Notes under the pieces: model-generated
Told to the model about the DNA's origin: nothing
Database searches by the model: none
What the model saw: the letters and a program-made list of their open reading frames with translations, nothing else
Translations under genes and position numbers: made by a program
Shown: positions 19,705 through 46,860 of the stretch, one piece after another
Layout of the letters: every line of letters starts with the position of its first letter
Position numbering within the stretch: the first letter of the stretch is position 1
NCBI RefSeq assembly: GCF_019823105.1
Contig: NZ_CP081960.1
Coordinates: 62,001 to 126,000 of the forward strand
Source of the DNA: Halobaculum magnesiiphilum
Lineage (GTDB): Archaea; Halobacteriota; Halobacteria; Halobacteriales; Haloferacaceae
Direction of reading: 5' to 3'
DNA: 64,000 bases

Positions 19705-20576
19705 ACCCGAACCGCGTCGACTCGGTCGTCGACCTCACGTACGGGCTCCTGATCGCGTTGGCCGTCGGACTGATCCTCGTGCTCGGCACGGAGGTGGGCG
19801 TCGCGTTCGGGCTGGGCGTGATCGTCTCCTACGTTCTCCACATCGCCTGGAAGATGGCCCGATTCGACCCCCAGTGGATGACGACCGAGGTCCAGCAGAC
19901 GGTCGAGCAGACGGTCGCGGACACCGTCGACGAGACCGTTCAGGACGTCGAACGGTCGGTCGCGGAGACGGTCGACGAATCCGTCGGTGAAACGGTCGAG
20001 GAGAAGGTGGGCGAGACGGTGGAGGAGAAGGTCGGTGAAACGGTCGAGAAGACGGTCGGGGAGACGGTCGAGGAAACGGTCGCGGATACCGTGGACAAGA
20101 CGGTGGAGGAGACGGTCGACAAGACGGTGGAGGAGACGGTCGACAAGACGGTGGAAGCGAAGGTGGGCGAGACGGTAGACGAGACAGTGGGCGAGACGGT
20201 CGAGAAGACCGTCGACGAGACTGTCGAGAAGACGGTAGACGAAACGATGGAGGAGAAGGTGGGTGAAACGGTCGAGAAGACGGTGGAGGAGACGGTCGAC
20301 AAAACGGTGGAGGAGAAGGTGGGCGAGACGGTGGAGAAGACGGTGGAGGAAACGGTCGAGAAGACGATGGAGGAGAAGATGGGCGAAACGGTGGAGGAGG
20401 CGGTCGAGCGGTCGGTCGGAGAGCAACTGGGCGAGGGCGGTGACGCGGACGACGATGCCGAAAGCGACGCGGACGAAGACGTTGACGACACCGAGGGTGA
20501 AGCCGCCGACAGCGACGGGAAGGAGGACGTCGAGGGAACGGAGGACGAGGAGGACGGGTCGACTGACACGAGATAA
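19692..20576 (+). CDS. Membrane-anchored protein with about 45 tetrapeptide (E-T-V-x) repeats
   Basis: I do not recognise a named family. The protein (294 residues from GTG 19692, or three fewer from GTG 19701) has two short membrane helices (about 17-53), a short basic stretch, then from about residue 65 to 247 a nearly perfect four-residue repeat of the type ETVE-KTVE-ETVD-KTVG. It ends in a very acidic tail (248-294). Val at every fourth position between charged residues suggests a long charged helix or coiled coil projecting from the membrane. On the coding strand it is a 12-base tandem repeat. The charged, repetitive rod recalls stress or spacer proteins, but no function can be assigned. 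Confidence 0.75.
   Translation: MDPVNPNRVDSVVDLTYGLLIALAVGLILVLGTEVGVAFGLGVIVSYVLHIAWKMARFDPQWMTTEVQQTVEQTVADTVDETVQDVERSVAETVDESVGETVEEKVGETVEEKVGETVEKTVGETVEETVADTVDKTVEETVDKTVEETVDKTVEAKVGETVDETVGETVEKTVDETVEKTVDETMEEKVGETVEKTVEETVDKTVEEKVGETVEKTVEETVEKTMEEKMGETVEEAVERSVGEQLGEGGDADDDAESDADEDVDDTEGEAADSDGKEDVEGTEDEEDGSTDTR
19884..20432 (+). repeat. 12-base tandem repeat region inside the membrane-anchored repeat gene
   Basis: About 45 imperfect copies of a 12-base unit (consensus GAGACGGTCGAG / AAGACGGTGGAG) encode the tetrapeptide repeat. Codon choice varies between copies (ACG is constant; GTC/GTG and GAG/GAA alternate), so the array is not recent. The opposite strand is also open, which is a by-product of the repeat. 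Confidence 0.9.
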
Positions 20577-30135: not shown

Positions 30136-31389
30136 CTATTCGGAGGGGTACCACGCGAGGGCGTGGTCGGCGACGAGCGTGACCGCGACGGGCTCGCCCA
30201 CCTCGAACTCCTCGGTGTGGTTGTGGAGACAGCGCAGGACGGTGCCGTCGTCGAGCTTCACGTGGTAGACGAACGAGGGCCCGGTGTACTGCCGGCGGAT
30301 CACCTCGCCGTCGGCGTCGCCCTCGGCGACCGGGGTGGCCCTGAGGTCGTCCGGGCGCACCAGCACGTCGACGTGGCTGCCGACGTAGCCGTCGCCGAGC
30401 CCCTTCAACAGGTCCCGGTCGTACGAGCCGACGCTCGTCTCGATCCCGCTCTCGCTGACGCGCGCCGGGAGGAAGCTCGCCTGCCCCAGGAAGGAGGCGA
30501 CGAACCGTGAGGTGGGATGCTCGAACACCTCCCCGGGGTCGCCGATCTGTTCGACCGTGCCGTCGTTGACGACGGCGACGCGGTCGGAAATCGACAGCGC
30601 CTCCTCCTGGTCGTGGGTAACCGAGACGGCCGTCACGCCCGCCTCGTCGAGAATGCGCTTCACCTCCTCGCGCATCCGCACGCGGAGGCTCACGTCGAGG
30701 TTCGAGAACGGCTCGTCGAGCAGCAATACCTCCGGTTCCGGAGCCAGCGAGCGCGCGAGCGCCACCCGCTGGCGCTGCCCGCCCGACAGCTCGGTTACCG
30801 AGCGGTCGCCGTAGTCGCCGAGACCGACCAGATCCAGCAGTTCAGCCACCCGCTCGTCGGCGGTCTCGGAGTTCGGGTCGTCGAGCCCGAACGCGATGTT
30901 CTCCGCGACCGTGAGGTGCGGGAACAGCGCGAACTCCTGGAACACGAGCCCCACGTCGCGTTCCTCGGGCGGGGTGGCCGCGCCCTCACCGGCAACAACG
31001 TCGCCGCCGACAGCGATTTTACCCTCGGAGGGGGTCTCCAGCCCGGCTATCATGCGAAGCGTCGTGGTCTTCCCGCACCCGGACGGGCCCAGAAGGGTGA
31101 CGAGTTCGCCCTCGCGGACGGTCAGATCTAGGCCGGAGACGGCCGTCTCCGAGCCGTACCGCTTGACCACGTCCTCGAGTTCCAACACCGCCTCGCCCGT
31201 CGGCTCGCCCGCGTCGCCGCCGAGGCTGTCGCCGACTGTCGCCGCCGACTCGACCCGGTCGCGATCCGTTGCGCTGCCAGCGGTCTCGTCGACGGCCGTC
31301 CCGCCGTCGGTGGCCGGACCGGCCGCGTCGGCGTCGGCTCGAACGGGCCGATTTGCGTCGCGGTCTGGGTGGGGTGTGTCGTCACACAT
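30136..31389 (-). CDS. ABC transporter ATPase (Fe(III)/FbpC type)
   Basis: The 417-residue ATPase has a long acidic N-terminal extension (about 70 residues). It then shows Walker A GPSGCGKTTT, Q-loop VFQEFALFPHLT, signature LSGGQRQRVALARSL, Walker B VLLLDEPFSNLD, and the H-loop TAVSVTHDQEEAL. The C-terminal region is a TOBE-type domain. It matches the Fe(III)/spermidine/sulfate group of importers and pairs with the permease (overlap of eight bases) and the binding protein upstream. Iron as substrate is supported by permease type and by the DtxR-like box at the head of the operon. Confidence 0.88.
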   Translation of the reverse strand: MCDDTPHPDRDANRPVRADADAAGPATDGGTAVDETAGSATDRDRVESAATVGDSLGGDAGEPTGEAVLELEDVVKRYGSETAVSGLDLTVREGELVTLLGPSGCGKTTTLRMIAGLETPSEGKIAVGGDVVAGEGAATPPEERDVGLVFQEFALFPHLTVAENIAFGLDDPNSETADERVAELLDLVGLGDYGDRSVTELSGGQRQRVALARSLAPEPEVLLLDEPFSNLDVSLRVRMREEVKRILDEAGVTAVSVTHDQEEALSISDRVAVVNDGTVEQIGDPGEVFEHPTSRFVASFLGQASFLPARVSESGIETSVGSYDRDLLKGLGDGYVGSHVDVLVRPDDLRATPVAEGDADGEVIRRQYTGPSFVYHVKLDDGTVLRCLHNHTEEFEVGEPVAVTLVADHALAWYPSE

Positions 31390-33040
31390 CGTCGGAACGG
31401 GTGAGCAGCGGAACCATCGAGAGGCCGGACACGGCCACTAACACGAGCGCCGGCAGGGCGGCGCGGCCGTAGTACCCGGCCTCCTGAACACGCCAGATGT
31501 AGGTCACTATCGTTGTAAACCCTGTCGGATGGAGGATGAGCGTCGTGTCCAGCTCCTTCATCGTCGTGAGGAACACGAGCGCGGCCCCCGCGACCAGGCC
31601 CGGCGAGATGAGCGGCAGCGTCACCCGCCGGAACGCGCCGCGCGGGTTCTCGCCGAGCAGGCGGGCGGCGCCGACCAGATCGCGGTCCACGCCGAGCACG
31701 GACGACTTCGTCGAACCGACCGCCTGCGGGAGGAACCGGACCACGTACGCGAACACCAGAAGCGGCAGCGACTGGTACACCACCCGGGCCGCGTCGGCGC
31801 CGAACGTCTCCAGCAGCCACCGGCTGGAGAAGAACACGAGCGCCAGCCCGAGGACGACGCCGGGCATCGCGTACCCGAGGTACGTCGCGCGGTCGACGGC
31901 CTTCGCCAACAGCGAGTTCGACCGTCCGGCGTAGTAGGCGACCGGGAGCGCGAGCACCACAGTCGCGGCCGCCGTCAACACGGCGACGTACGCCGAGTTC
32001 ACTGCGAACTCGGGTCGGAACGCGAGCCCGCCTCCGCTGTACCCCGGCCCGGAGCGCACGAGCCACATCGTGAGGATCCCCACGGGCAGCGCCAGCGTGA
32101 ACAGGCTCACGAACGCGGGGACGGCCGCCGCGAGCCAACGGAACGGGCCAAGCGAGACGACCGTCCGCACCGACGAGGGCGTCCCGTACCCCGCGGCGGT
32201 GTCGCCGCTGACGCGCGATTCGAGCGAGAGGATCACCGCAGTGACGGCGAGCAGCTGGATCGACAGCAGCGTCGCGTTCGACCGCCCCACGCCAAAGCTG
32301 TTCAGCTCGACGTAAATGACGCGCGTGAACACGTCGAGGCGCATGATCGCGGGCGTCCCGAAGTCCGACAGCGTGTACAGCGCGACCAACAGCGCGCCCG
32401 CGGTCACACCCGGCGCGATCTGTGGAAGGATCACCCGCCGGAACGCCTGCGGATAGCTGTGGTTGAGCGTTCGCGCCGCCTCCAGCTGTGTCGTGTCGAA
32501 CGAGAGCAGCGACGCGCGCGTGGTCAGGAACACGTACGGATACGTGAACAGCGTCAACACGAGCGTCGTCCCGCCGAGCCCGTATACCGTCGGGATGTAG
32601 GGGTTCACGAACCCGAACCCGTACTGGGCGAAGAGATCCGGCAGCGCGCCGCTGGGACCGAACGCGGAGACGTATGCGAACGCGCCGATGTAGCTGGGGA
32701 CGACCAGGGGAAGCGCCGCGAGCACGGTCCAGAACCGCCTGAATGGGAGGTCCGTCTGGACGGTCAGCACCGCAAGCGGCACACCCAGCGCGATCGACGC
32801 GCCGGTCACTAGGCTGACGAGCGTGAGACTGTTGACGAGTACCTCCGTCGTCGTCTCCGAGGTCAACAGCGAGACGGCGTCGGCGACGGCCAGCTCCGAT
32901 GCGCTGACGAACAACCACAACAGCGGCGAGAGCACGGCGGCCGCGACGCCCGCAGCCAGGAGGACGACCGCCACGCTCGGCTGGCCGTCGTCGCTGGCGA
33001 GCAGTCCGCGGACCCGACCGACGCCCTCGCCGGGGGCCAT
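31382..33040 (-). CDS. Fe(III)-type ABC transporter permease (FbpB type, fused)
   Basis: The 552-residue permease has about 12 helices and two copies of the EAA loop, as in FbpB/ThiP: EAARTLNHSYPQAFRRVILP in the first half and GAARLLGENPRGAFRRVTLP in the second. It would form both halves of the channel with a dimer of the ATPase. It starts 18 bases after the binding-protein stop. The architecture fits ferric iron or thiamine; context suggests iron. Confidence 0.87.
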   Translation of the reverse strand: MAPGEGVGRVRGLLASDDGQPSVAVVLLAAGVAAAVLSPLLWLFVSASELAVADAVSLLTSETTTEVLVNSLTLVSLVTGASIALGVPLAVLTVQTDLPFRRFWTVLAALPLVVPSYIGAFAYVSAFGPSGALPDLFAQYGFGFVNPYIPTVYGLGGTTLVLTLFTYPYVFLTTRASLLSFDTTQLEAARTLNHSYPQAFRRVILPQIAPGVTAGALLVALYTLSDFGTPAIMRLDVFTRVIYVELNSFGVGRSNATLLSIQLLAVTAVILSLESRVSGDTAAGYGTPSSVRTVVSLGPFRWLAAAVPAFVSLFTLALPVGILTMWLVRSGPGYSGGGLAFRPEFAVNSAYVAVLTAAATVVLALPVAYYAGRSNSLLAKAVDRATYLGYAMPGVVLGLALVFFSSRWLLETFGADAARVVYQSLPLLVFAYVVRFLPQAVGSTKSSVLGVDRDLVGAARLLGENPRGAFRRVTLPLISPGLVAGAALVFLTTMKELDTTLILHPTGFTTIVTYIWRVQEAGYYGRAALPALVLVAVSGLSMVPLLTRSDDV

Positions 33041-33058: not shown

Positions 33059-34312
33059 TCACAGCACCCCGACGTCGCGCATCAACTCGAGGGTCGGCTG
33101 GATGTTCGACAGCTCGCGCAGGTCGATGCTCGGCGGGTCCAGCTCCGACACCGGCGGCAGCCCGCCCACGGGCGGGATGTCCCCGACCATCGGGTAGCCG
33201 TACGTCCGGGTGGCGAAGAACTCCTGGGCCTCCGCCGACAGCAGGTGGCGCACGAAGTTGAACGCGAGCTCCTTGTTCTGGCTCGCCGACAGCACCGACG
33301 CGCCCGCGACGTTGATCAGTCCGCCGGCGTCGCCGCTGGTGAACGCCAGGTCGATGGGGGCGTTCGGCCGGGCGGCCTGCACGCGCAGCGCGTAGTAGTG
33401 GTTCGCGAACCCGCCGTTGAGTGCGCCGTCGGCGACGGCGTTCGACACGAGGAACTCGTTGTTGAACTCGGTGACGCCCGCGTCGAGCATCCCCTGGAGC
33501 CACTCGCGGGTGGCCTCCTCGCCCTCGATCAGCCGCATCGCGGTGATGAACGACTGGAAGGCGCCGTAGGTGGGGGCCCACCCGATCGCGTCCTGGAACC
33601 CCTCGAACTCCGGGAACTCCATCACGTCGTCCGGGATGTCGTCCTCCGACAGCTCCTCGGTGTTGTACGGGACCGCGCGGGCCCGCCCGGCGGTGCCGAC
33701 CCACGTGTCGTCGGGGTGGAACTCCTCGGGGACGGGGTCGACGACCTCCGAGGGGAGCTCCGCCGAGAGTCCCTCGGCGGAGACGGCCGCCAGCGACCCG
33801 GCGTCGACCGACCAGAACACGTCCGCCGGCGTCGCCGGGCCCTCGCTGATGATCGTGTTCGCCGCGTCGGCGGTTCCCGACTCCCGAGGCGTCGCGGTGA
33901 AGTCGGGGTAGATGTCCTCGAACTTCGCGAGCAGGTCGCGGTAGAGGCCGCCCTCGCCGCCGCCGAGGTAGATCGTCAGCTCGCCGCTGAGATCCTCGAG
34001 GTCGCCGATGCGCGTGCCGCCGATGTCGGAGCGTCCCTGCGCCAGCGGGCCGGAGCCGCGGAAGTCGTCGAACGCGGCGTCGATCCGGTCGTCGCTGCCG
34101 GTTCCGCCGCCGCCTCCGCCGCCACCGCCGTCGTCGCCGCCACCGCCGCCGCCGCTGTCGCCCTCGCCGTCGCCGCCGAGGCCGCCACAGCCCGCGAGCC
34201 CGGCCGCGCCGGCCGCGCCCAGTCCCGCGAGTACCTTCCGCCGCCGATACGTCCGCCGTCCGTCCGTCGTGTCGTCTTCGGTCATCTCGGTGTGTGTCTC
34301 TCGATCAGTCAT
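33059..34312 (-). CDS. Fe(III)-type ABC substrate-binding lipoprotein (FbpA-like)
   Basis: The product has a Tat signal (TYRRRKVLAGLG) with a lipobox LAGC, then an acidic Gly-rich linker. The mature domain reads as an iron-binding periplasmic protein: LTIYLGGGEGGLYRDLLAKF, SGTADAANTIISEGPATPADVFW, and YNTEELSEDDIPDD. ATG 34312 overlaps the GT75-like stop by eight bases; a second start at 34285 would leave a shorter signal peptide. It delivers substrate to the permease downstream. FbpA relatives use Tyr pairs for Fe(III); these could not be confirmed here. Confidence 0.83.
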   Translation of the reverse strand: MTDRETHTEMTEDDTTDGRRTYRRRKVLAGLGAAGAAGLAGCGGLGGDGEGDSGGGGGGDDGGGGGGGGGTGSDDRIDAAFDDFRGSGPLAQGRSDIGGTRIGDLEDLSGELTIYLGGGEGGLYRDLLAKFEDIYPDFTATPRESGTADAANTIISEGPATPADVFWSVDAGSLAAVSAEGLSAELPSEVVDPVPEEFHPDDTWVGTAGRARAVPYNTEELSEDDIPDDVMEFPEFEGFQDAIGWAPTYGAFQSFITAMRLIEGEEATREWLQGMLDAGVTEFNNEFLVSNAVADGALNGGFANHYYALRVQAARPNAPIDLAFTSGDAGGLINVAGASVLSASQNKELAFNFVRHLLSAEAQEFFATRTYGYPMVGDIPPVGGLPPVSELDPPSIDLRELSNIQPTLELMRDVGVL

Positions 34313-35486
34313 CAGCAAGCACCTCCGGTGCGTCCGCCGCCGTCGTACGCGTTCCCGCGCCCTCGACGCGGTCGAGGCAGTCGATCCAGTCGCGCATGTA
34401 CTCGCCGCAGTGGTTGAGGAACGCCCCGTTGTTCCACTCCTCGAAGTCGCCCTCCGCGAGCGCGTCGGCCATCTCCGCGAACGCCGCCTCGAAGGAGTCG
34501 GCGTCCTCGGCGACGCCGTCGAGCACCTCCCAGACGTGCTCGTTCAGCTCAAGGCCCGCGACCTCGTTCGCGAGGTCGTCGAACGTCGACCGGGGCGCCT
34601 TGTTGTGCTCACACAGCGGGCCGCCATTGTACACCTGCTTGCCGAGCACGTCCGCGGCGCGCTTGAGGAACAGCCCCGACCAGATGTCGTCGAACCGGCC
34701 GACCTCCCACTCGTTGTCGTCCATCGGGAGCTGATAGAACGCGGGGACGACCTCGCGACGGAACCCGAGGTTCATCGAGCAGACCGTGAGGTACTGCCCC
34801 TCGGCGGCGACGAAGTCGCGCCGGAAGTCGCTCGACTCGGTGAGCGTCTGGGCCTGCCCCTGCAGGTCGCCGTCCATCAGGATCCGGACGGCGTCGAGGT
34901 CGGGCACGTTCGTCCACAGTCCTTGGGAGGCGACGACTTCGTCGACGTGCTCGGTGTCGGTTTCGACGGTCTCGTCCATCGCGGCGTACGGGTAGCCGCG
35001 GGGGTAGAGGTCGGTGTCGGACTGGTAGAGGACGTTCACCCACGACTCGTCCGAACGGACTGACTCGATCTCTCCCTCATGCGCGAGGTTGCGCATGTGG
35101 GTGCCGAAGAAGTCCTCCTCGGCGTGCGGGAGCGTGTCGTCGTCGATGAAGACGCCGTACTCGAAGCGCTCGTGGGCCCACATGTACAGCAGCCCAAACG
35201 ACGTCTGGGCGTGGCTCGCGGCGGGGATCAGGTGTGAGAACTCGGCGGCGTCGTGGTCCTCGAACCACTCCTCGCGCGCGGTGCCGTCGAAGACGACGCC
35301 GTCGACGCCCTCCTCGTCGAGCATCGACTCCATCGCGTCGGTGTCACAGAAGTCCTCGGTGACGAGGACGAAGAACAGCCTGTCCGTGTCGAAGCCGTGT
35401 TCGCGAGCGTTCGCGACGTACTCGCGGACGCACTCGTACTCCCGGATCGTCGGGATGATGACACAGATGTCCTGCGGTGAACTCAT
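34305..35486 (-). CDS. GT75-like protein (reversibly glycosylated polypeptide / UDP-arabinopyranose mutase type)
   Basis: The 393-residue soluble protein has a GT-A-like start (ICVIIPTIREYECVREYVAN), a FIDDDTLPHAEEDFF triple-Asp motif and LYPRGYPYAA, which match the DxD and RGYP motifs of the plant RGP/UAM family. These bind UDP-sugars and can self-glycosylate at an Arg; here the Arg in PRGYP is kept. In archaea the family is reported but poorly characterised. It is the first gene of the iron-type ABC operon, behind a GGAGG Shine-Dalgarno and a DtxR-type palindrome. The link between sugar chemistry and iron is unexplained. Confidence 0.7.
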   Translation of the reverse strand: MSSPQDICVIIPTIREYECVREYVANAREHGFDTDRLFFVLVTEDFCDTDAMESMLDEEGVDGVVFDGTAREEWFEDHDAAEFSHLIPAASHAQTSFGLLYMWAHERFEYGVFIDDDTLPHAEEDFFGTHMRNLAHEGEIESVRSDESWVNVLYQSDTDLYPRGYPYAAMDETVETDTEHVDEVVASQGLWTNVPDLDAVRILMDGDLQGQAQTLTESSDFRRDFVAAEGQYLTVCSMNLGFRREVVPAFYQLPMDDNEWEVGRFDDIWSGLFLKRAADVLGKQVYNGGPLCEHNKAPRSTFDDLANEVAGLELNEHVWEVLDGVAEDADSFEAAFAEMADALAEGDFEEWNNGAFLNHCGEYMRDWIDCLDRVEGAGTRTTAADAPEVLADD

Positions 35487-35503: not shown

Positions 35504-35517
35504 TTAGGGCGACCTAA
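35504..35517 (-). promoter_or_regulatory. DtxR/Idr-type iron box at the ABC operon promoter
   Basis: TTAGG-GCGA-CCTAA is a perfect 5-base inverted repeat with the half-site of DtxR-family operators. On the minus strand it lies 18-31 bases before the GT75-like ATG and includes the TTTAGG element, so a bound repressor would mask the TATA region. The family regulates iron uptake in haloarchaea. Confidence 0.65.
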
Positions 35518-35646: not shown

Positions 35647-38085
35647 CTACGAGTCGACCCGTTTCTCGATTCGATCCTCGTGTTCTCGGATCAGTTCCTC
35701 ACCGGCTCGCGTCGTGAAGTATCCCCTGTCGGTCTGTTGGAGGTACCCCCTCCGCGTCAACTGTCGGAGGGCGGGATCGACTCCGGCCTCGGCCGTCGGG
35801 TCGTCGTGCAGATCCACCATCCGTTCTTTGATCTCGACTCCCGTGTTCCCTTCTCCCCGATCGATGCCGTACAGCAGCGTGAGTTGGAAGTCGTTCAGTC
35901 GGTCCGTCGAACCGTTCGACCCGGTCGCCCCCGTCGGTCCGCGCGACTCGACGGGTTCGCGCGACTGGGCGGGTTCGCGTGACTGGGCCAAACCCTCCGG
36001 ATCGACGGACCCGCGTGAGTCCGTCGACCGGCGGCTCCGGGGTTCGGTATCGGGGTCCAGGTCCGCTTCAGGATCGCCCTGGATGAACCTCCCGAGGGCG
36101 AGCACCGACAGTGAAGCCGTCGCGACGAGCGCGGTCGCCGCGGGTACCACGAGTACTGTCCCGAACCCGACGTACTCGAGGAGAAGGTTCCCCCCGCCGA
36201 CGGCCCCGAGCGCCAGAAGGCCCGCGACCCAGACGTTCGCGCCAAACCCGACGGTGACCACCAGACTGCTAACACGGTCGAGCAGATCGCCACTCGGCAC
36301 GGGCTCGGGGCTCGGAAGCAGGTCGGCGAGCCCGAGCGCGGCCACCTCGGAGGGCCGGCCGTCGAGTGTGTTCTCGAGGAACGTCCGCCGCTGTCGGACC
36401 CGGTGCTCGACGCGGGCTCGCTCGAACGCCAGTCGATCGGCCACCCGCCTGCTCCAGAGCGCGGCCGCAAGCGCGATCGCGAGGAGCCCGGACGCGGGGC
36501 CGACAACGCCTTGGATCGTTGCTCCGACGGCTGCGACACCGAGAATCGCCGGCGCGAGGAGACCGCCGCCGTTGGACGCCGTCGCGATGGCGTCGTCGCT
36601 GGCACCGGTTCGGCGGGCGTACCACAACGCGGCCATCCCGGCCGCTCCGACGCCGATCGCGTCCTGGAGTCCGTCGCCGATCGGAACCAGTGTCGTCGCC
36701 AGCCCGACGCCGAGAAGTACGACCGAGGCGAGCAGCACGCCCGCAGTGATGCGGGCGGCGTCCCCCACGAGCGCCCCCGGGGCCGCGCGAACGGTCTCGC
36801 CGAACGACCGGCCGGAGTCGTACTCGAAGACCCCCGTATCGACCGCGTGTTCGATCTGTGCGTGAATGTTCTCCGCCGGCTTGGGGGCGTCGTCGTACCG
36901 GAGGGTTCCGTCGACGATGGCGGCCTCGTACTCGCCACCGGCGTGCCGGTAGGTGATCGTCACCGCCGGGATCTCCTCCCGCTCGATGACGCGGCGGTAC
37001 ACTCCCCCTTCGTTCTCGGGGTCCTCTCGCTCCCGGTCGACGACCGTGCCGTCCTGACTGGAGATCCAGTCGCGGGGAACGCGTTCGGTGTCGAGTTCGA
37101 CGGTCGTGTCCACGTCGAACACGAGTTCGCCGCTCACCGCGTGAACCACCTCGCCCACGCCGTCGCACTGCCCACACGTTACCGTTCCGTGCTCGTCGCA
37201 GTCGGTACAGCGGACGACGCCGGACTCGTCACAGTTGTCGCAGGGTTCGGTTCCCGACCCGTTACACGCGTCACACGAGAGCGTAGTCGTCCCGCCGCAC
37301 GTGTCGCAGGGCTCGGTTCCGGTCCCGTCGCAACTGCTACAGCCGAGCGACTTCCGGCCGCCACACGTCGAACAGTCGATCCACGTGTCGTCGACGCCGT
37401 CGCCGTCACAGCGCGGGCAGTCGACGGTCGACTCGCCCCCACAGGTGTCGCACTCGCCGCCTTCGCCGTCGCAGTCCTCGCAGTTGATCCAGCCGTCGCC
37501 CGCACAGCGTGGACACTGCCCGGTTTCGGTGTGCCCGCCCGTTCCTCCGCACTCCGGGCAGTCCTCGGACGCGCTTCCGCCACACGACGAACAGGGCTGG
37601 GTGCCGTCCTCGCATGCGTCGCACTCGGTGACCGGGTCCCCGTCACAGGCCGAGCACGTCGTCTTCCCGTCACCGTGGCAGGTACGACAGTCCGCCTCCT
37701 TGTCGCCCCCGCATCTGGAACAGGTCGTGCGTTCGGTGCCGTCACAGCCGGGACAGGTCTGGACCGGTTGGCCCGTCTCGACGTACGGGACGCGCTTCGT
37801 CTCCAGGCCATCCGGCGCGGCGTCGTATCGGTCAGCGTACGCGACTCGGTCGTCGCACTGTCGCTCGTACGTCCCGGGGAGGATCCAGCTCCGCTTCGCG
37901 CTCCCGTCGGTGGCCGTGAGAATTCGCTCCGATCGACGCTGCGCACGTTCCCGGTGTGTCTCGACCACCGTCGCGTCCGCGACACTGTCGTCGACGCTGG
38001 CTTTGGCGGCCAACTGCTCAAGCACGTCGTCGGCGTCCGGCTGAGAGTCGGCTCCCCAGTCGTCGCTGTCGGGGTCGCTACTCAT
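35647..38085 (-). CDS. DnaJ-like zinc-array membrane protein with C-terminal winged helix
   Basis: This 812-residue protein has an unusual order of parts. Residues 111 to about 315 hold 18 CxxC motifs, many as CxxCxGxG (CPECGGTGG, CPRCAGDGW, CDACNGSGT), as in the DnaJ cysteine-rich domain but several times longer, enough for about nine zinc sites. A globular beta-rich region (about 315-430) follows, then about six hydrophobic helices (about 440-670). A basic, Ser/Arg repeat linker (EPAQSREPVESRGP) leads to a C-terminal winged helix (about 725-812; DFQLTLLYGID, LRQLTRRGYLQQ). Zinc binding is family knowledge; a role in chaperoning or signalling is inference. It has its own promoter. Confidence 0.8.
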   Translation of the reverse strand: MSSDPDSDDWGADSQPDADDVLEQLAAKASVDDSVADATVVETHRERAQRRSERILTATDGSAKRSWILPGTYERQCDDRVAYADRYDAAPDGLETKRVPYVETGQPVQTCPGCDGTERTTCSRCGGDKEADCRTCHGDGKTTCSACDGDPVTECDACEDGTQPCSSCGGSASEDCPECGGTGGHTETGQCPRCAGDGWINCEDCDGEGGECDTCGGESTVDCPRCDGDGVDDTWIDCSTCGGRKSLGCSSCDGTGTEPCDTCGGTTTLSCDACNGSGTEPCDNCDESGVVRCTDCDEHGTVTCGQCDGVGEVVHAVSGELVFDVDTTVELDTERVPRDWISSQDGTVVDREREDPENEGGVYRRVIEREEIPAVTITYRHAGGEYEAAIVDGTLRYDDAPKPAENIHAQIEHAVDTGVFEYDSGRSFGETVRAAPGALVGDAARITAGVLLASVVLLGVGLATTLVPIGDGLQDAIGVGAAGMAALWYARRTGASDDAIATASNGGGLLAPAILGVAAVGATIQGVVGPASGLLAIALAAALWSRRVADRLAFERARVEHRVRQRRTFLENTLDGRPSEVAALGLADLLPSPEPVPSGDLLDRVSSLVVTVGFGANVWVAGLLALGAVGGGNLLLEYVGFGTVLVVPAATALVATASLSVLALGRFIQGDPEADLDPDTEPRSRRSTDSRGSVDPEGLAQSREPAQSREPVESRGPTGATGSNGSTDRLNDFQLTLLYGIDRGEGNTGVEIKERMVDLHDDPTAEAGVDPALRQLTRRGYLQQTDRGYFTTRAGEELIREHEDRIEKRVDS

Positions 38086-38125: not shown

Positions 38126-38232
38126 GTTGGCTGCCCGCGAATTCTTCGGGAGGGTAATAAAGCTACCACACGGCGTCCAAACCGTACGGAACCGATCGAC
38201 AACGGGAAGCCGATATGGACACCGTCGACGGC

Positions 38233-39876
38233 CTACAACCGCTCGTCGATGTGGTCGGCCGCCTTCAGCGACAGCGCCGCGATCGTGAGCGTCGGGTTCA
38301 TCGCGCCGCCGGTGACGAACACCGAACTCCCGGCGAGCGTGAGGTTCGCGAGGTCGTGCGTCCGCAACTGGGGGTCCACGACGCTCTCGGCGGGGTCGGT
38401 GCCCATCCGGGTCGTCCCCATGTGGTGATACGCGGGGCCGGTGTTGTCGGGGCCGACCGTCCAGCCGATGTCGACGCCCAACTCTTTCAGCACCTCTCGT
38501 TGGATCTCGTTGGCGCGCTCGATGGTCCGGCGCGTCGTCGCGTCGAGGCTCCACACCACGTCGGGGACGGGGTTCCCGTGGTCGTCCGTCCGCGAGGGGT
38601 CCAGCCGGATCCGGTTCTCCCTCCGGGGCAATTGCTCGACGAGTGCGCCCATCGCGACGTGCTGGCCGTATCCCTCGCGGATCTCCTCCAGCAGATCGTC
38701 GCCGAAGCTGTCCGCGCCGAGGGCGATGTCCGCCGGCGACGGACCGGCGTAGTTGAGGAACTCCAGCTTGATCGCTGTGCGGGAGCCGTCCGGTCGGTCG
38801 TAGAACTGGTGGCTCTCGGTGGTGTTGAAGCCGACGTGCTTCTGGCGGGTCGGCTCGTCGAGCGTGCCGCCCATCCCCGCGAACAGGTGGTCCATGAAGT
38901 ACCGCCCCACGAGTCCCGAGGAGTTCGCGAGCCCGTCCGGGAACGACTCGCTCCGGGAGAGCAGGAGGAGCCGCGGCGTCTCCACCCCGCCGGCGGCGAC
39001 GACGAACTCGCGAGCCTCCTGACGGTACTCCTCGCCGTCAGGCGTCGCGTACACCGCTGCGGTCACGCGTTCTCCGCGGTCGTCGTGTTCGAGCCGCTGG
39101 ACGGGAACCCGGTCGAGCACGCGCGCGTCGTTCGCCTCGGCGACATCGATGTGGCGCGTCGCGTCGTACTTCGCGCCAGACGGGCAGACGGGTCTGCAGG
39201 TGCCATAGCCGACGCACGCGCTCGCCTCGTCGGTCGGCTCGGAGTTCCTGGCGTTCGGCACCGAGTGGGTCGCGAGGCCGACCTGCTCACACGCCTCCGC
39301 GAACAGCGAGTCCGAGTATGACGGCGGGAACGCCGGCAGCGGGTGCGGCTCCTCCCGCGGCGGCGCGAAGGGGTTGTCCGAGGCGCCCGACACGGACAGT
39401 TCCTCCTCGGCGTCGGCGTAGTACGGGCGGAGGTCGTCGTACTCGATCGGCCAGTCGGCGCCCATCCCGGTCGCCGACGCGAGCTCGAAGTCCTGCTCGT
39501 GCATCCGCATCACCATCCCCTGCCAGTGGAGCGTGCTCCCGCCGATCCCCTTCACGCGGGCGGCGTTGAGCGGGTAGTACCGATCGCCGGTGCTGCTGTA
39601 GGCGTCGCGCTCGGGGTCGGTGTCCCAGACCGGGGCGTCAACGCCCGGCCGGAGGTGCCGTTCCATCCGCTCGGTGCGGTCCTCGGGATCGAACCGAGGA
39701 CCGGCGTCCAGCACGACCACGTCGTGGCCGGCCGCCGACAGCTCCGCGGCGACGAGTCCGCCCGCCGGTCCCGCGCCGACGACGCACACGTCGACCCGCG
39801 GCGACGGCGTCCGGTCGATGTCGGCGACGCCGGAGCCGTCCACGCGCTCGGTGCCGTCGGTTTCGGTCGAGGTCAT
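38233..39876 (-). CDS. GMC-family FAD oxidoreductase (gluconate 2-dehydrogenase large-subunit type)
   Basis: The 547-residue protein has an N-terminal FAD dinucleotide fold (DVCVVGAGPAGGLVAAELSA, residues about 29-50), a glycine-rich GIGGSTLHWQGMV segment, a cysteine-containing stretch CVGYGTCRPVCPSGA, and the C-terminal GMC-type DTRR-like end with AYHHMGTTRMGTDP and SVFVTGGAMNPTLTIAALSLKAADHI. Such enzymes oxidise sugar acids or alcohols to feed the respiratory chain. It overlaps the small subunit gene by four bases. No Tat signal is seen; export could depend on the partner. Substrate unknown. Confidence 0.85.
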   Translation of the reverse strand: MTSTETDGTERVDGSGVADIDRTPSPRVDVCVVGAGPAGGLVAAELSAAGHDVVVLDAGPRFDPEDRTERMERHLRPGVDAPVWDTDPERDAYSSTGDRYYPLNAARVKGIGGSTLHWQGMVMRMHEQDFELASATGMGADWPIEYDDLRPYYADAEEELSVSGASDNPFAPPREEPHPLPAFPPSYSDSLFAEACEQVGLATHSVPNARNSEPTDEASACVGYGTCRPVCPSGAKYDATRHIDVAEANDARVLDRVPVQRLEHDDRGERVTAAVYATPDGEEYRQEAREFVVAAGGVETPRLLLLSRSESFPDGLANSSGLVGRYFMDHLFAGMGGTLDEPTRQKHVGFNTTESHQFYDRPDGSRTAIKLEFLNYAGPSPADIALGADSFGDDLLEEIREGYGQHVAMGALVEQLPRRENRIRLDPSRTDDHGNPVPDVVWSLDATTRRTIERANEIQREVLKELGVDIGWTVGPDNTGPAYHHMGTTRMGTDPAESVVDPQLRTHDLANLTLAGSSVFVTGGAMNPTLTIAALSLKAADHIDERL

Positions 39877-40460
39877 CGATCCGGCCCCTCCTGATACGAC
39901 CGGGTGCCGCCGGGATGCCCCGGGGGGTTCTCCAGTCCCGCCAGCGACGCGCCGGTCGGCGAGGCGTACAGCGCGTACAGCAGTTCGTTCACGAGGTAGT
40001 GGCGGACCCGCTGGGGGTCGGTGCCGTCGGGGTCCGGGTCGACCACGTCGACGCTCATCACGTCCAGCGCCTCGGCTCGTTCCTCGTCCCCGAGGTCGGC
40101 GTACCGGACCCCATACAGGTTCTCCGTGTAGTCGTCGAGCGTCTCCACCGCCTCGGCGACCCCGCGGGCGTACGCGCCGTCGCCGTCGACGCGGCCCCCG
40201 GTGTAGGTGCGGACGAACTCGTCCACCCCGTCGACGGCGGAGGGATACACCGCGTGCGCGACCGCGATCAGCGTCGACAGTTCGTGGTCGCCGACTGCGT
40301 CGCCGCCCGCTCCCCCGTTCTCGTCGTCGGTGGCGTCGTCGTTGTCGGTGGTGGTGCCGTCGCCGGGGCCGTCGCTCGCAACCGGCGCGCCACAGCCGGC
40401 CAGCGATCCGACGCCCGCTGCCGACAGCGCGAGCATCGCGTCGCGACGGGAGAGCTGCAT
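39873..40460 (-). CDS. Gluconate 2-dehydrogenase subunit 3-like Tat lipoprotein
   Basis: The 195-residue protein carries SRRDAMLAL and a lipobox LAGC at residue 23, then an acidic linker, and a small helical domain (LSTLIAVAHAVYPSAVDGVD; VRHYLVNELLYALYASPTG; LENPPGHPGG) of the gluconate 2-dehydrogenase subunit 3 type. It likely carries the GMC subunit through the Tat pathway as a partner. It is the first gene of the pair and lies behind a DtxR-type palindrome. Confidence 0.83.
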   Translation of the reverse strand: MQLSRRDAMLALSAAGVGSLAGCGAPVASDGPGDGTTTDNDDATDDENGGAGGDAVGDHELSTLIAVAHAVYPSAVDGVDEFVRTYTGGRVDGDGAYARGVAEAVETLDDYTENLYGVRYADLGDEERAEALDVMSVDVVDPDPDGTDPQRVRHYLVNELLYALYASPTGASLAGLENPPGHPGGTRSYQEGPDR

Positions 40461-40471
40461 TCGCGAACCGA

Positions 40472-40485
40472 TTAGGCCAACCTAA
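40472..40485 (-). promoter_or_regulatory. DtxR/Idr-type iron box at the GMC oxidoreductase promoter
   Basis: TTAGG-CCAA-CCTAA has the same half-sites as the box at 35504. It lies 12-25 bases before the small-subunit ATG. Reading on the minus strand, TTTAGG again acts as the TATA-like element, so the site should control initiation. Confidence 0.62.
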
Positions 40486-44385: not shown

Positions 44386-44604
44386 TCAGGCCCGGTCGGA
44401 CAACTCCGTCACGCTCCTGCGGTCGGCGACGATGAACGCGTCCTCACGGAGCAGGTCCTCGTCCGTCGGGAGCACGAGCACCTCCTCCCCGCCGCTCGTC
44501 GAGGTGGGGATGAAGTCCAACTCGATCAGGTCGTAGCCCAGGTCATCGAGCGGGTCCGGGTTCGGGGGAAGCTCTCGCCAGGCGTCGGTCATCGATCGAG
44601 GCAT
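44386..44604 (-). CDS. Small acidic protein coupled to the beta-helix gene
   Basis: The 72-residue protein (MPRSMTDAWREL...) starts at ATG 44604, overlapping the stop of the secreted beta-helix gene (ATGA). It has a Pro-rich start, then IELDFIPTSTSGGEEVLVLP and a charged end. No signal peptide, so it stays in the cytoplasm. Not recognised. Confidence 0.55.
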   Translation of the reverse strand: MPRSMTDAWRELPPNPDPLDDLGYDLIELDFIPTSTSGGEEVLVLPTDEDLLREDAFIVADRRSVTELSDRA

Positions 44605-46589
44605 CAGGCCCCTCGTTCGATCGTGAGGTCCGCCTCGCCGTCGACGGTGACTCCCGTGAGGGTGCCGCTGAACCGGTACGCGTCCACGCCGGACCCGACG
44701 ACTCCGATGACCTTGCCGTCGCGCGCGAAGTCCTCGACGCGGTCCCAGTCGGTGCCGTCCTCCGTCTTACTGCTCGCCTCGGTGTCTCGGACGACCTCGC
44801 CGGAGACGGTGAACGTGTAGTTCGTCGGACTGCCGTTGTCGGCGCCGTTGACCACGACCTGGTTCGACAGGTCGTCGTCGTACGTGCGGTCGCCGTCGTC
44901 CGTGGACCCGTCGTCGGTGGATCCGTCGTCCGTACTCCCGTCGTCCGTGGACCCGTCGTCGGTGGATCCGTCGTCCGTACTCCCGTCGTTCGATCCACCA
45001 TCGTCGGTGGATCCGTCGTCCGTGGACCCGTCGTCGGTGGATCCGTCGTCCGTACTCCCGTCGTTCGATCCACCATCGTCGGTGGATCCGTCGTCCGTGG
45101 ACCCGTCACCGGACGAGTCGTCGCCCGACCCGTCGTCGGTCGGCACTTCCCCGTTGACGAGTTCCTCGAAGGTGGTCGTGGTCCCGTTCAGCGAGACGGA
45201 GTACTCGTAGCCGTCGTCGACGACGTAGTCGACGACCTCGCCGTTGAAGCGGAACGAGTCCAGTTCGTCCGGCTGGAGGTCTTGGACTTCGATCAGCGTG
45301 TTCCCATCGCTGGTAGTGGTGATGGTGTCGGAGCCGGGCTCGGCCTCGTCTCCGTACGTCGCTTCCCCAGTCACCACGATGTCCATGTCGAAGTCTCCGG
45401 GCGTGGCGCTGTCCGTTTGCGGGTTGTCAGCGTCGGCGTGGAGGACCAGCGTGTGGTCGTACTCGGCGGGGTCTGGTTCGACGGGAACCGAACCGTCGCC
45501 CCACGGACCAACGCCCGGCTCGATCCCTTCGATCTCGTCGGAGACCGCGTAGCCGGTGATGTCCGAGGGCAGCGGGAACTCCGGGGAACCGGCAACGATA
45601 CCGTTCCCGTCGTAGTCCGGCTCGATCCCGTCGCTGCCGGAGCCCTGGAACGTACAGTTCTCGACGGTCACGTCGATGTCGCCGCCGGTCTTGTCGCGAA
45701 TGATGTCCCCACTGGAGTCGTTGTAGAAGTGACAATTGCGGACCGTGAGCGTCGATCCCGCGGCACCGTCGTGCGCGACGATCGGGTTGCCGACGCCGTC
45801 GACGTCCATCGCGACGAAGTAACAGTTCTCGACAACGAAGTTACCCGGGTGGCGCATACGGAGCCCGCGACCGTTTCTCACGTTGGTGTCGTCGGTGCGC
45901 ACCGGGTCGGTCACCGCGATCAGGCAGTTACGCACGTACGTCGTCTCGTTGACGTCGGTGCCGCGCCGGTGACCGATCCGGATGTTCGAGATGTTGCTGT
46001 TGGCCGCAACACAGTTCTCGAATGTCATCGGGAGCTTGTCGGTATAGGCACCGTTGTTGCCCATCCACGCCCACGAGGAGTTTCGAACGACCGCACGTTC
46101 CCCCCCCTCCGGATTGTACATCGCACGGTCTCGCGACTGGTTCCCGCCCTCGGGCCAATGGAATCCGTCTATCTCACAGCCGGACACGACGTACAGTCCA
46201 GCACGGGCCTCATTGTTGCGTCCGCGGACGACGATGTTCTCGAGCCGTCCCTCGATCCAGCCGTCCATCGTGCCTCCCTCGAGGTTCACGACGACGTCGC
46301 CGGGGTTGCCCTCGCCGATCAGGGCGTCGCCCGAGCCGATGTCGAGGTCGTCGTCGTTCCAAGTGTACTCGCCGGCCGGAATCCTGACCTCGCCGCTGGG
46401 CGAGCTGTACTCGCCGAAGTCGCCAGCTGCGGTGGCCGCCTCGCTCGCCAGCGCGCCGGCGCCGCCGACGGTCGCGAACGCGCCGATCCCCTTCAGCAGC
46501 GTTCGGCGGCTCGCGGAGGCGGTATCCTCCGACTTCTGTTCAGTAGTCGACTCCTTCTCGTCTGCGTCCCCAGTATGGCTGTCTGCCAT
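44604..46589 (-). CDS. Tat-exported right-handed beta-helix protein with Asp-rich linker
   Basis: The 661-residue protein (ATG 46589, MADSHTGD) has a Tat signal (SASRRTLLKGIG) with cleavage near ATAAGD. Residues about 45-330 are a right-handed beta-helix (RIPAGEYTWNDDDL, IVVRGRNNEARAGLYVV, TVENCTFQGSGSDG), as in pectate lyase-like enzymes and surface polysaccharide-binding proteins. A long linker of Ser-Thr-Asp-Asp-Gly repeats (about 495-570) leads to a C-terminal beta domain. Catalytic residues were not identified. It may act on or bind cell-surface glycans; a second member lies at 50840. Confidence 0.75.
   Translation of the reverse strand: MADSHTGDADEKESTTEQKSEDTASASRRTLLKGIGAFATVGGAGALASEAATAAGDFGEYSSPSGEVRIPAGEYTWNDDDLDIGSGDALIGEGNPGDVVVNLEGGTMDGWIEGRLENIVVRGRNNEARAGLYVVSGCEIDGFHWPEGGNQSRDRAMYNPEGGERAVVRNSSWAWMGNNGAYTDKLPMTFENCVAANSNISNIRIGHRRGTDVNETTYVRNCLIAVTDPVRTDDTNVRNGRGLRMRHPGNFVVENCYFVAMDVDGVGNPIVAHDGAAGSTLTVRNCHFYNDSSGDIIRDKTGGDIDVTVENCTFQGSGSDGIEPDYDGNGIVAGSPEFPLPSDITGYAVSDEIEGIEPGVGPWGDGSVPVEPDPAEYDHTLVLHADADNPQTDSATPGDFDMDIVVTGEATYGDEAEPGSDTITTTSDGNTLIEVQDLQPDELDSFRFNGEVVDYVVDDGYEYSVSLNGTTTTFEELVNGEVPTDDGSGDDSSGDGSTDDGSTDDGGSNDGSTDDGSTDDGSTDDGSTDDGGSNDGSTDDGSTDDGSTDDGSTDDGSTDDGSTDDGDRTYDDDLSNQVVVNGADNGSPTNYTFTVSGEVVRDTEASSKTEDGTDWDRVEDFARDGKVIGVVGSGVDAYRFSGTLTGVTVDGEADLTIERGA
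44941..45090 (-). repeat. Perfect 75-base tandem duplication in the Asp-rich linker
   Basis: Bases 44941-45015 are repeated without change at 45016-45090. They encode 25 linker residues (repeats of DDGST). Shorter, imperfect 15-base units flank it. Identity over 75 bases points to very recent duplication. Confidence 0.9.
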
Positions 46590-46860
46590 GGACGGTAAGG
46601 GAGCGAATACACACAAGTAGGATCTGACGAATTCCCTCCCGATCGGCGGTAAGATACGGTTACTTACGGTCGAACGCGGGTACGTTCCCCGTACCGTTTG
46701 TTTCGAGTAACTACCGAATAACTACGAAATGGATTCACGATCGGCGGGTCCGCGCCGGCGTGCCGGTGGAGGCGGTACGTTCGTCCTTCTGATTTGACAG
46801 CAACGAGCGCGCGTCAGTAATCGACAACAAACGAGCGGTAGGGACGATAAAAACCCGAGA

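Follow-up and report, generated by a model that had tools for sequence, protein, structure and literature searches.

What could a haloarchaeal protein do that carries 18 CxxC motifs on the same chain as a set of membrane helices and a winged helix? Its gene lies in the window, which is the whole 64,000-nucleotide stretch of Halobaculum magnesiiphilum DNA analyzed here and is carried by a 487-kb replicon (Table 1). The orthologs WP_222923734.1 and WP_284063458.1 are both annotated as "hypothetical protein," and no Pfam or NCBIfam model scored above its cutoff on the window protein. Whole-gene dN/dS against the H. roseum ortholog was 0.22 (Nei-Gojobori), as it was for the array alone; values in the folded parts were near 0.2 (0.16 to 0.27), with the winged helix at 0.16, while the linker, at 0.36, evolved fastest. 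All array cysteines (36/36) are invariant across the five Halobaculum copies, which share 40 to 92% identity. The dN/dS of 0.22 excludes chance and indicates that the gene is real and under selection.

The motifs, which are non-overlapping, number exactly 18 and span residues 111 to 307 (first residues 111 to 304), in agreement with a preliminary description of this DNA that had counted 18 in about 200 residues. The full CxxCxGxG form occurs in 8 of the 18, and the only cysteine outside the array is C77. PF00226, which models the J domain with its HPD motif, had no match in the window protein, confirming the absence of a J domain reported earlier. The about six membrane helices described previously were a fair estimate: strict hydropathy gives five in the window copy, and a sixth, borderline candidate lines up with an unambiguous helix in two relatives. 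The proposed C-terminal winged helix was borne out by profile matches to haloarchaeal winged-helix proteins (6ez1, E = 1e-5; hsRosR 6qfd, E = 2e-5) and by PadR (PF03551), which is above its cutoff in the G006 copy (2.2e-9), just below it in the G005 copy (5.6e-5), and unlisted for the window copy. A domain does follow the array (residues 313 to 425), although its supposed beta-rich character is suggested by composition and low-confidence models only. AlphaFold2 was uninformative both for the full window protein, modeled with one ortholog as input (pLDDT 33), and for residues 166 to 253 alone (pLDDT 41), a fragment that lacks the first cysteine of motif 6.

Table 1. Features of the array gene and its surroundings (window coordinates)
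Feature	Coordinates	Strand	Basis
Array gene, 812 aa	35647..38085	(-)	Orthologous to Halobaculum roseum WP_222923734.1 and H. halobium WP_284063458.1
TATA-like TTTATTA upstream of array gene	38155..38161	(-)	Kept in H. roseum and H. halobium
N-terminal base segment, residues 1-105, family-conserved (RYDxAPxGF... motif)	37771..38085	(-)	Alignment
CxxC array (18 motifs; residues 111-307), predicted to be a zinc hairpin with nested pairs (motif i to 19-i)	37165..37755	(-)	Motif scan, spacing, DnaJ cysteine-rich match
Long spacer, 15-residue step, motifs 7 to 8	37516..37548	(-)	Mirror of motif 11-12 spacer
Predicted tip of the hairpin, made of the four central motifs (8-11), residues 191-226	37408..37515	(-)	Spacing patterns 7|4|7, 8|4|8, 5|4|5
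Long spacer, 15-residue step, motifs 11 to 12	37375..37407	(-)	Mirror of motif 7-8 spacer
Base domain after the array, residues 313-425, with YxYxGxxYxxxxVDGxxxxxxxP as family motif	36811..37149	(-)	Alignment
Membrane region, residues 443-670, 5-6 predicted helices	36076..36759	(-)	Hydropathy
Low-complexity S/R/E linker, residues 671-728	35902..36075	(-)	Sequence
PadR/RosR-like winged helix, residues 729-812	35650..35901	(-)	6ez1 and 6qfd matches; PadR in orthologs
ABC ATPase with TOBE_2 domain	30136..31389	(-)	Domain match
ABC permease, "iron ABC transporter permease" in orthologous loci	31382..33040	(-)	Domain match and annotation
ABC solute-binding protein	33059..34318	(-)	Domain match
Reversibly glycosylated polypeptide/alpha-1,4-glucan-protein synthase-like protein	34305..35486	(-)	Domain match and annotation
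Palindrome TTAGGGCGACCTAA upstream of RGP-SBP-ABC operon	35504..35517	.	Perfect TTAGGNNNNCCTAA match
GMC-family FAD oxidoreductase	38233..39876	(-)	Domain match
Gluconate 2-dehydrogenase subunit 3-like protein	39873..40460	(-)	E = 2.4e-4, just under family cutoff
Palindrome TTAGGCCAACCTAA upstream of G2DH3-GMC operon	40472..40485	.	Perfect TTAGGNNNNCCTAA match

The array protein is a variant of the DnaJ-type zinc domain and belongs to a previously unnamed haloarchaeal family; such arrays were not described in the open-access literature searched. A 19-member profile of the array family matched the cysteine-rich domain of DnaJ (1exk, E = 1e-8) and BSD2 (6ekb, E = 2e-5), and one relative with canonical-form motifs (L081) passes the PF00684 cutoff; an eight-sequence alignment was too divergent to serve as a search query. 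With the cysteine-rich domain of DnaJ and other type I Hsp40 proteins (PF00684), the protein shares, besides the 1exk match, CxxCxGxG motifs, their even number, and a predicted nested antiparallel hairpin. Unlike DnaJ, it carries 18 motifs rather than four (two zinc), has neither a J domain nor a recognizable C-terminal client domain, and includes membrane helices and a winged helix. The post-array domain, though conserved, gave no sequence or profile match to the DnaJ client-binding domain. Among plastid proteins, BSD2, ZnJ2, ORANGE, and PSA2 also possess a DnaJ-type zinc domain without a J domain, and ORANGE, like the array protein, has membrane helices. However, BSD2 and ZnJ2 have four motifs each, and the plastid J-less zinc proteins show no array, no winged helix, and no close sequence relation to the array protein.

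The arrangement of the motifs is best read from their spacing, measured as the step between successive CxxC motifs. In the window copy, the steps are 11,11,11,11,10,11,15,11,10,11,15,11,11,11,11,11,11; in three relatives, they are 11x4,17,11,10,11,17,11x4 (L013), 11,11,15,17,18,17,15,11,11 (L016), and 11,11,15,12,15,11,11 (L033). Sixteen distinct arrays, drawn from about 15 genera of haloarchaea, all have an even motif number (range, 4 to 20). Overall, 20 of the 21 arrays examined are even, the exception (L081) being an array clipped by the script, and all 20 long, delimitable arrays are even, with L008, L017, and L020 being so only if one degenerate CxC is counted. Asymmetry summed over the 16 distinct spacing patterns was 22, versus a shuffle mean of 141 and minimum of 86 (20,000 shuffles), in a test that treats related arrays as independent and was repeated with distinct patterns only. 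With the central gap fixed, the same value of 22 compares with a shuffle mean of 96 and a minimum of 52. Within the closest group, the four-motif center is constant (8|4|8 in G006, 7|4|7 in the window, and 5|4|5 in L013), and both long spacers shift jointly from 15 to 17.

In the DnaJ zinc domain, pairing is nested, with motif I joined to motif IV and motif II to motif III. Nested pairing of motif i with motif N+1-i predicts an even motif number, palindromic spacing, and symmetric length changes alike, whereas no such expectation follows from pairing of neighboring motifs, from a series of independent fingers, or from a loosely organized store like metallothionein. We are thus fairly confident that the array forms one nested hairpin, which would contain nine Zn(Cys)4 sites and extend the DnaJ rule. 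The preliminary description had missed this structural point, namely that even number and palindromic spacing indicate a single predicted hairpin and not independent fingers. Two other accounts of the array were rejected. Its origin by tandem duplication gave a two-halves score of 114, no better than the center-fixed shuffle mean of 96, and a row of complete four-motif DnaJ fingers is excluded because many arrays have 6, 10, 14, or 18 motifs.

Full-length orthologs are present in H. roseum (92%), H. halobium (84%), H. saliterrae (57%), and, as a chromosomal copy, G006 (about 40%). The gene was not found, at the search sensitivity used, in five other Halobaculum genomes that are all at least 93% complete (G001, G002, G004, G008, and G010); thus, it is accessory within the genus. 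An unbiased scan at the DNA level for three 11-residue motifs in succession had matches in 21 of the 392 genomes of the order, and two of these matches (G192 and G017) resemble low-complexity cysteine runs. A single-protein search of the genome contigs retrieved no related loci, an alignment-based search of the same contigs retrieved H. saliterrae only, and a search of viral contigs retrieved none. A broad phylum profile search matched mostly ordinary DnaJ (316/393 genomes) and was left out of the distribution. On Halobacterium salinarum pNRC200 and pHS2 (L029 6001-6987 and L030 5001-6197), an unannotated array gene directly follows an ISH6 transposase; it is apparently truncated, with 12 motifs left, and is probably a broken relative.

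Where the array would sit relative to the membrane is suggested by its more distant relatives. Several of these (L006, L014, L007, and L017) have a single helix at the extreme C terminus, which suggests a cytoplasmic array. Three 16-motif relatives have no helix, and beside one of them, the neighboring J protein ends in a hydrophobic helix. The parsimonious reading of these sequences is that the array is cytoplasmic and is held at, or recruited to, the membrane. An odd number of helices (five) would place the winged helix outside the cell, which counts against the explanation favored below.

The function of the array may be approached through the genes beside it. In three species of one genus (L075, L076, and L077), a J-domain gene adjoins the array gene, the two facing each other; the encoded protein has two J domains (PF00226, E = 3e-18 in L075) and a C-terminal helix. 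A homolog of this protein without the HPD motif adjoins arrays in two further genera from two other families (L074 and L117; E = 1e-12). Three to four genes from the L078 array lie genes for a membrane protein with a J domain and for a divergent, additional Hsp70 (E = 2e-155), in a genome (G023) with one other Hsp70. The membrane part fused to the L008 array (G053) is related to that of this J-domain protein (E = 4e-9). In G268 (L073/L027), the array shares its chain with a degenerate J domain, whose score (E = 1.2e-5) is just under the cutoff. Because the genomes checked have only 1 to 8 J-domain genes each, the repeated adjacency is unlikely to reflect chance. Client binding is known for the zinc domain of DnaJ and for ZnJ2, which has no J domain (PMC4428491, PMC5818400), and ZnJ2 prevents aggregation (PMC5818400). 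Relatives that adjoin or are fused to J-domain proteins, together with the one extra Hsp70, lead us to read the array protein as a J-less Hsp40-type client-binding arm, a chaperone role that we regard as about as probable as its absence.

We note two further observations at these loci. The locus of the fused J-domain array (L073 1231-10382) also encodes Ser/Thr kinase-FHA, PP2C phosphatase, and vWA proteins, suggesting a phosphorylation-linked module. In two families (L067 5365-6510 and L068 4975-6114), an unannotated protein of 379 to 381 aa is encoded with a 4-base overlap with the array gene; this operon partner of the L014/L015 arrays resembles Hsp70-type ATPases weakly (Pfam HSP70, E = 0.053; hhalign, E = 0.12), and clear copies of its gene are confined to the two genomes in which it accompanies an array.

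In Halobaculum, no J-domain or Hsp70 gene was found beside any copy, and the chaperone link would extend to this genus from relatives with different membrane parts. The suggestion of a membrane-bound folding factor made in the preliminary description is supported at the family level, through J/Hsp70 neighbors and a J fusion, but finds no such neighbors in Halobaculum. The neighbors there (metal uptake and redox) point away from folding and count against the chaperone reading. The GMC/G2DH3 genes upstream and the RGP-SBP-ABC genes downstream are kept in all five species, including around the chromosomal copy, and the promoters of both flanking operons carry perfect TTAGGNNNNCCTAA palindromes in 5/5 species. 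With 3 to 9 such sites per genome, 2 of the 3 in G003 and in G006 flank the array gene. The palindromes resemble DtxR-type sites and are "iron boxes" by that resemblance; DtxR-family iron regulators are known in haloarchaea (PMC11349517). The earlier placement of the gene between two iron-box operons is upheld, with perfect boxes at the corresponding sites of all five species. Both flanking operons have a genuine metal-handling context, but the array gene carries its own TATA-like promoter element and no TTAGGNNNNCCTAA box. Relatives outside Halobaculum mostly lack the boxes. In another family, a GMC-G2DH3 operon bearing a TTAGGNNNNCCTAA palindrome (L068 11392-13541) and an array of 10 motifs are 4 kb apart.

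This setting invites the reading of the protein as a membrane-bound one-component regulator, with the array as a putative cytoplasmic sensor of zinc, iron, or redox state and the winged helix as the DNA-binding output that would control the flanking metal-box operons. Regulators of the CadC/ToxR type likewise combine a sensor, a membrane helix, and a DNA-binding domain on one chain; unlike these, the array protein has a multispanning anchor, a sensor predicted to be cytoplasmic, and a putative DNA-binding domain at its C terminus. The last 84 residues match haloarchaeal PadR/RosR regulators (6ez1/6qfd, and PadR in orthologs), whereas tethering behind membrane helices and a disordered linker sets this winged helix, with its putative DNA binding, apart from them. 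The domain is kept in all five Halobaculum copies (dN/dS of 0.16 versus H. roseum), the gene is flanked by two of the few palindromes in each genome, and the L013 array has a PadR gene of its own locus 1.3 kb upstream, encoded separately (L066). However, arrays combined with a PadR-like winged helix, the architecture singled out in the preliminary description, occur in the five Halobaculum copies only, whereas the nearest relatives, L013 and L116, share the membrane part and end without a winged helix. This restriction makes the winged helix, most likely, a late addition, and the earlier idea of a zinc sensor reporting to DNA is weakened accordingly: the winged helix is real but would be at most a lineage-specific addition. 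DtxR-type boxes already account for control of both operons, and nine identical tetracysteine sites are unneeded for sensing. We consider the regulator reading rather unlikely; that the winged helix controls its own gene or the neighbors is plausible, if doubtful.

A zinc or iron reservoir, or a metal-loading platform at the membrane whose thiolate sites store and pass on metal, would account for the 36 conserved cysteines and suit an adjoining ABC transporter annotated as iron type beside DtxR-type palindromes. Palindromic spacing and even parity, however, indicate a precise fold and not a metallothionein-like store, and the relatives adjoin chaperone genes, mostly without boxes, so this alternative appears improbable. 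A membrane thiol-disulfide oxidoreductase or isomerase acting through the CxxC motifs finds precedent in the weak thiol-reductase activity of the DnaJ zinc domain (PMC4428491) and company in the redox-type GMC and G2DH3-like neighbors, but all 36 cysteines (36/36) fit metal ligation in paired tetrads and J-less ZnJ2 had no reductase activity in an insulin assay (PMC5818400), leaving it very improbable. Equally so is a passive rigid rod that only sets the distance from the membrane to a partner at its tip, which agrees with a conserved base and an arm length that changes by a single motif on each strand (between 4 and 20 motifs overall) but leaves the J/Hsp70 neighbors unexplained.

The best overall explanation remains a J-less Hsp40-type membrane arm consisting of a zinc hairpin with the winged helix as an add-on, to which we assign an even chance. 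The 18 CxxC motifs would fold into one antiparallel hairpin, motif i and motif 19-i meeting around a metal ion, and about nine stacked Zn(Cys)4 sites would produce a stiff arm. Metal binding itself calls for caution, as 5 of 14 tested predicted zinc-finger proteins of Haloferax volcanii did not bind zinc (PMC11241148). Both ends of the arm would meet at a globular base (residues 1-105 and 313-425), which five to six membrane helices would keep at the cytoplasmic face. There, the arm may serve as a J-less Hsp40-type surface for binding or holding clients at the membrane, which would be passed to Hsp70/J partners in trans; other lineages encode such partners next door or fused. In Halobaculum only, the added PadR-like winged helix probably makes transcription respond to the condition of the anchor or arm, with its own gene or the flanking metal-box operons as candidate targets. 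The length of such a ladder would evolve by gain or loss of one motif per strand. The more general idea of a "zinc ladder," a hairpin stapled by up to 10 metal sites that acts as a length-variable chaperone arm at the membrane of archaea and was wired in one genus to a DNA-binding domain, we rate slightly better than even.

If the arm folds in this way, the two-zinc finger of DnaJ would be the short end of a symmetric zinc-hairpin series with 2 to 10 metal sites. Sequence spacing alone would then reveal the pairing, and the rule (palindromic and even) would recognize such folds anywhere, giant phages included. The family would also point to an archaeal membrane-surface Hsp70/Hsp40 system in which the J domain and zinc arm often reside on separate proteins, a separation that would let the zinc domain's own role be asked experimentally.

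Uncultured phage genomes of about 640 kb encode proteins with 20 CxxC motifs (L083 481-2436) and 10 CxxC motifs (L084 445-1854), and the spacing of the latter is palindromic, as in the haloarchaeal arrays. Elsewhere in the window, positions 19889-20408 repeat a 12-bp unit (GGTCGAGGAGAC) about 44 times, read in a minus frame as a Thr/Val/Ser repeat, and positions 44893-45107 hold tandem repeats of 15/45/75 bp within a 670-aa minus-strand open reading frame (44604-46616).
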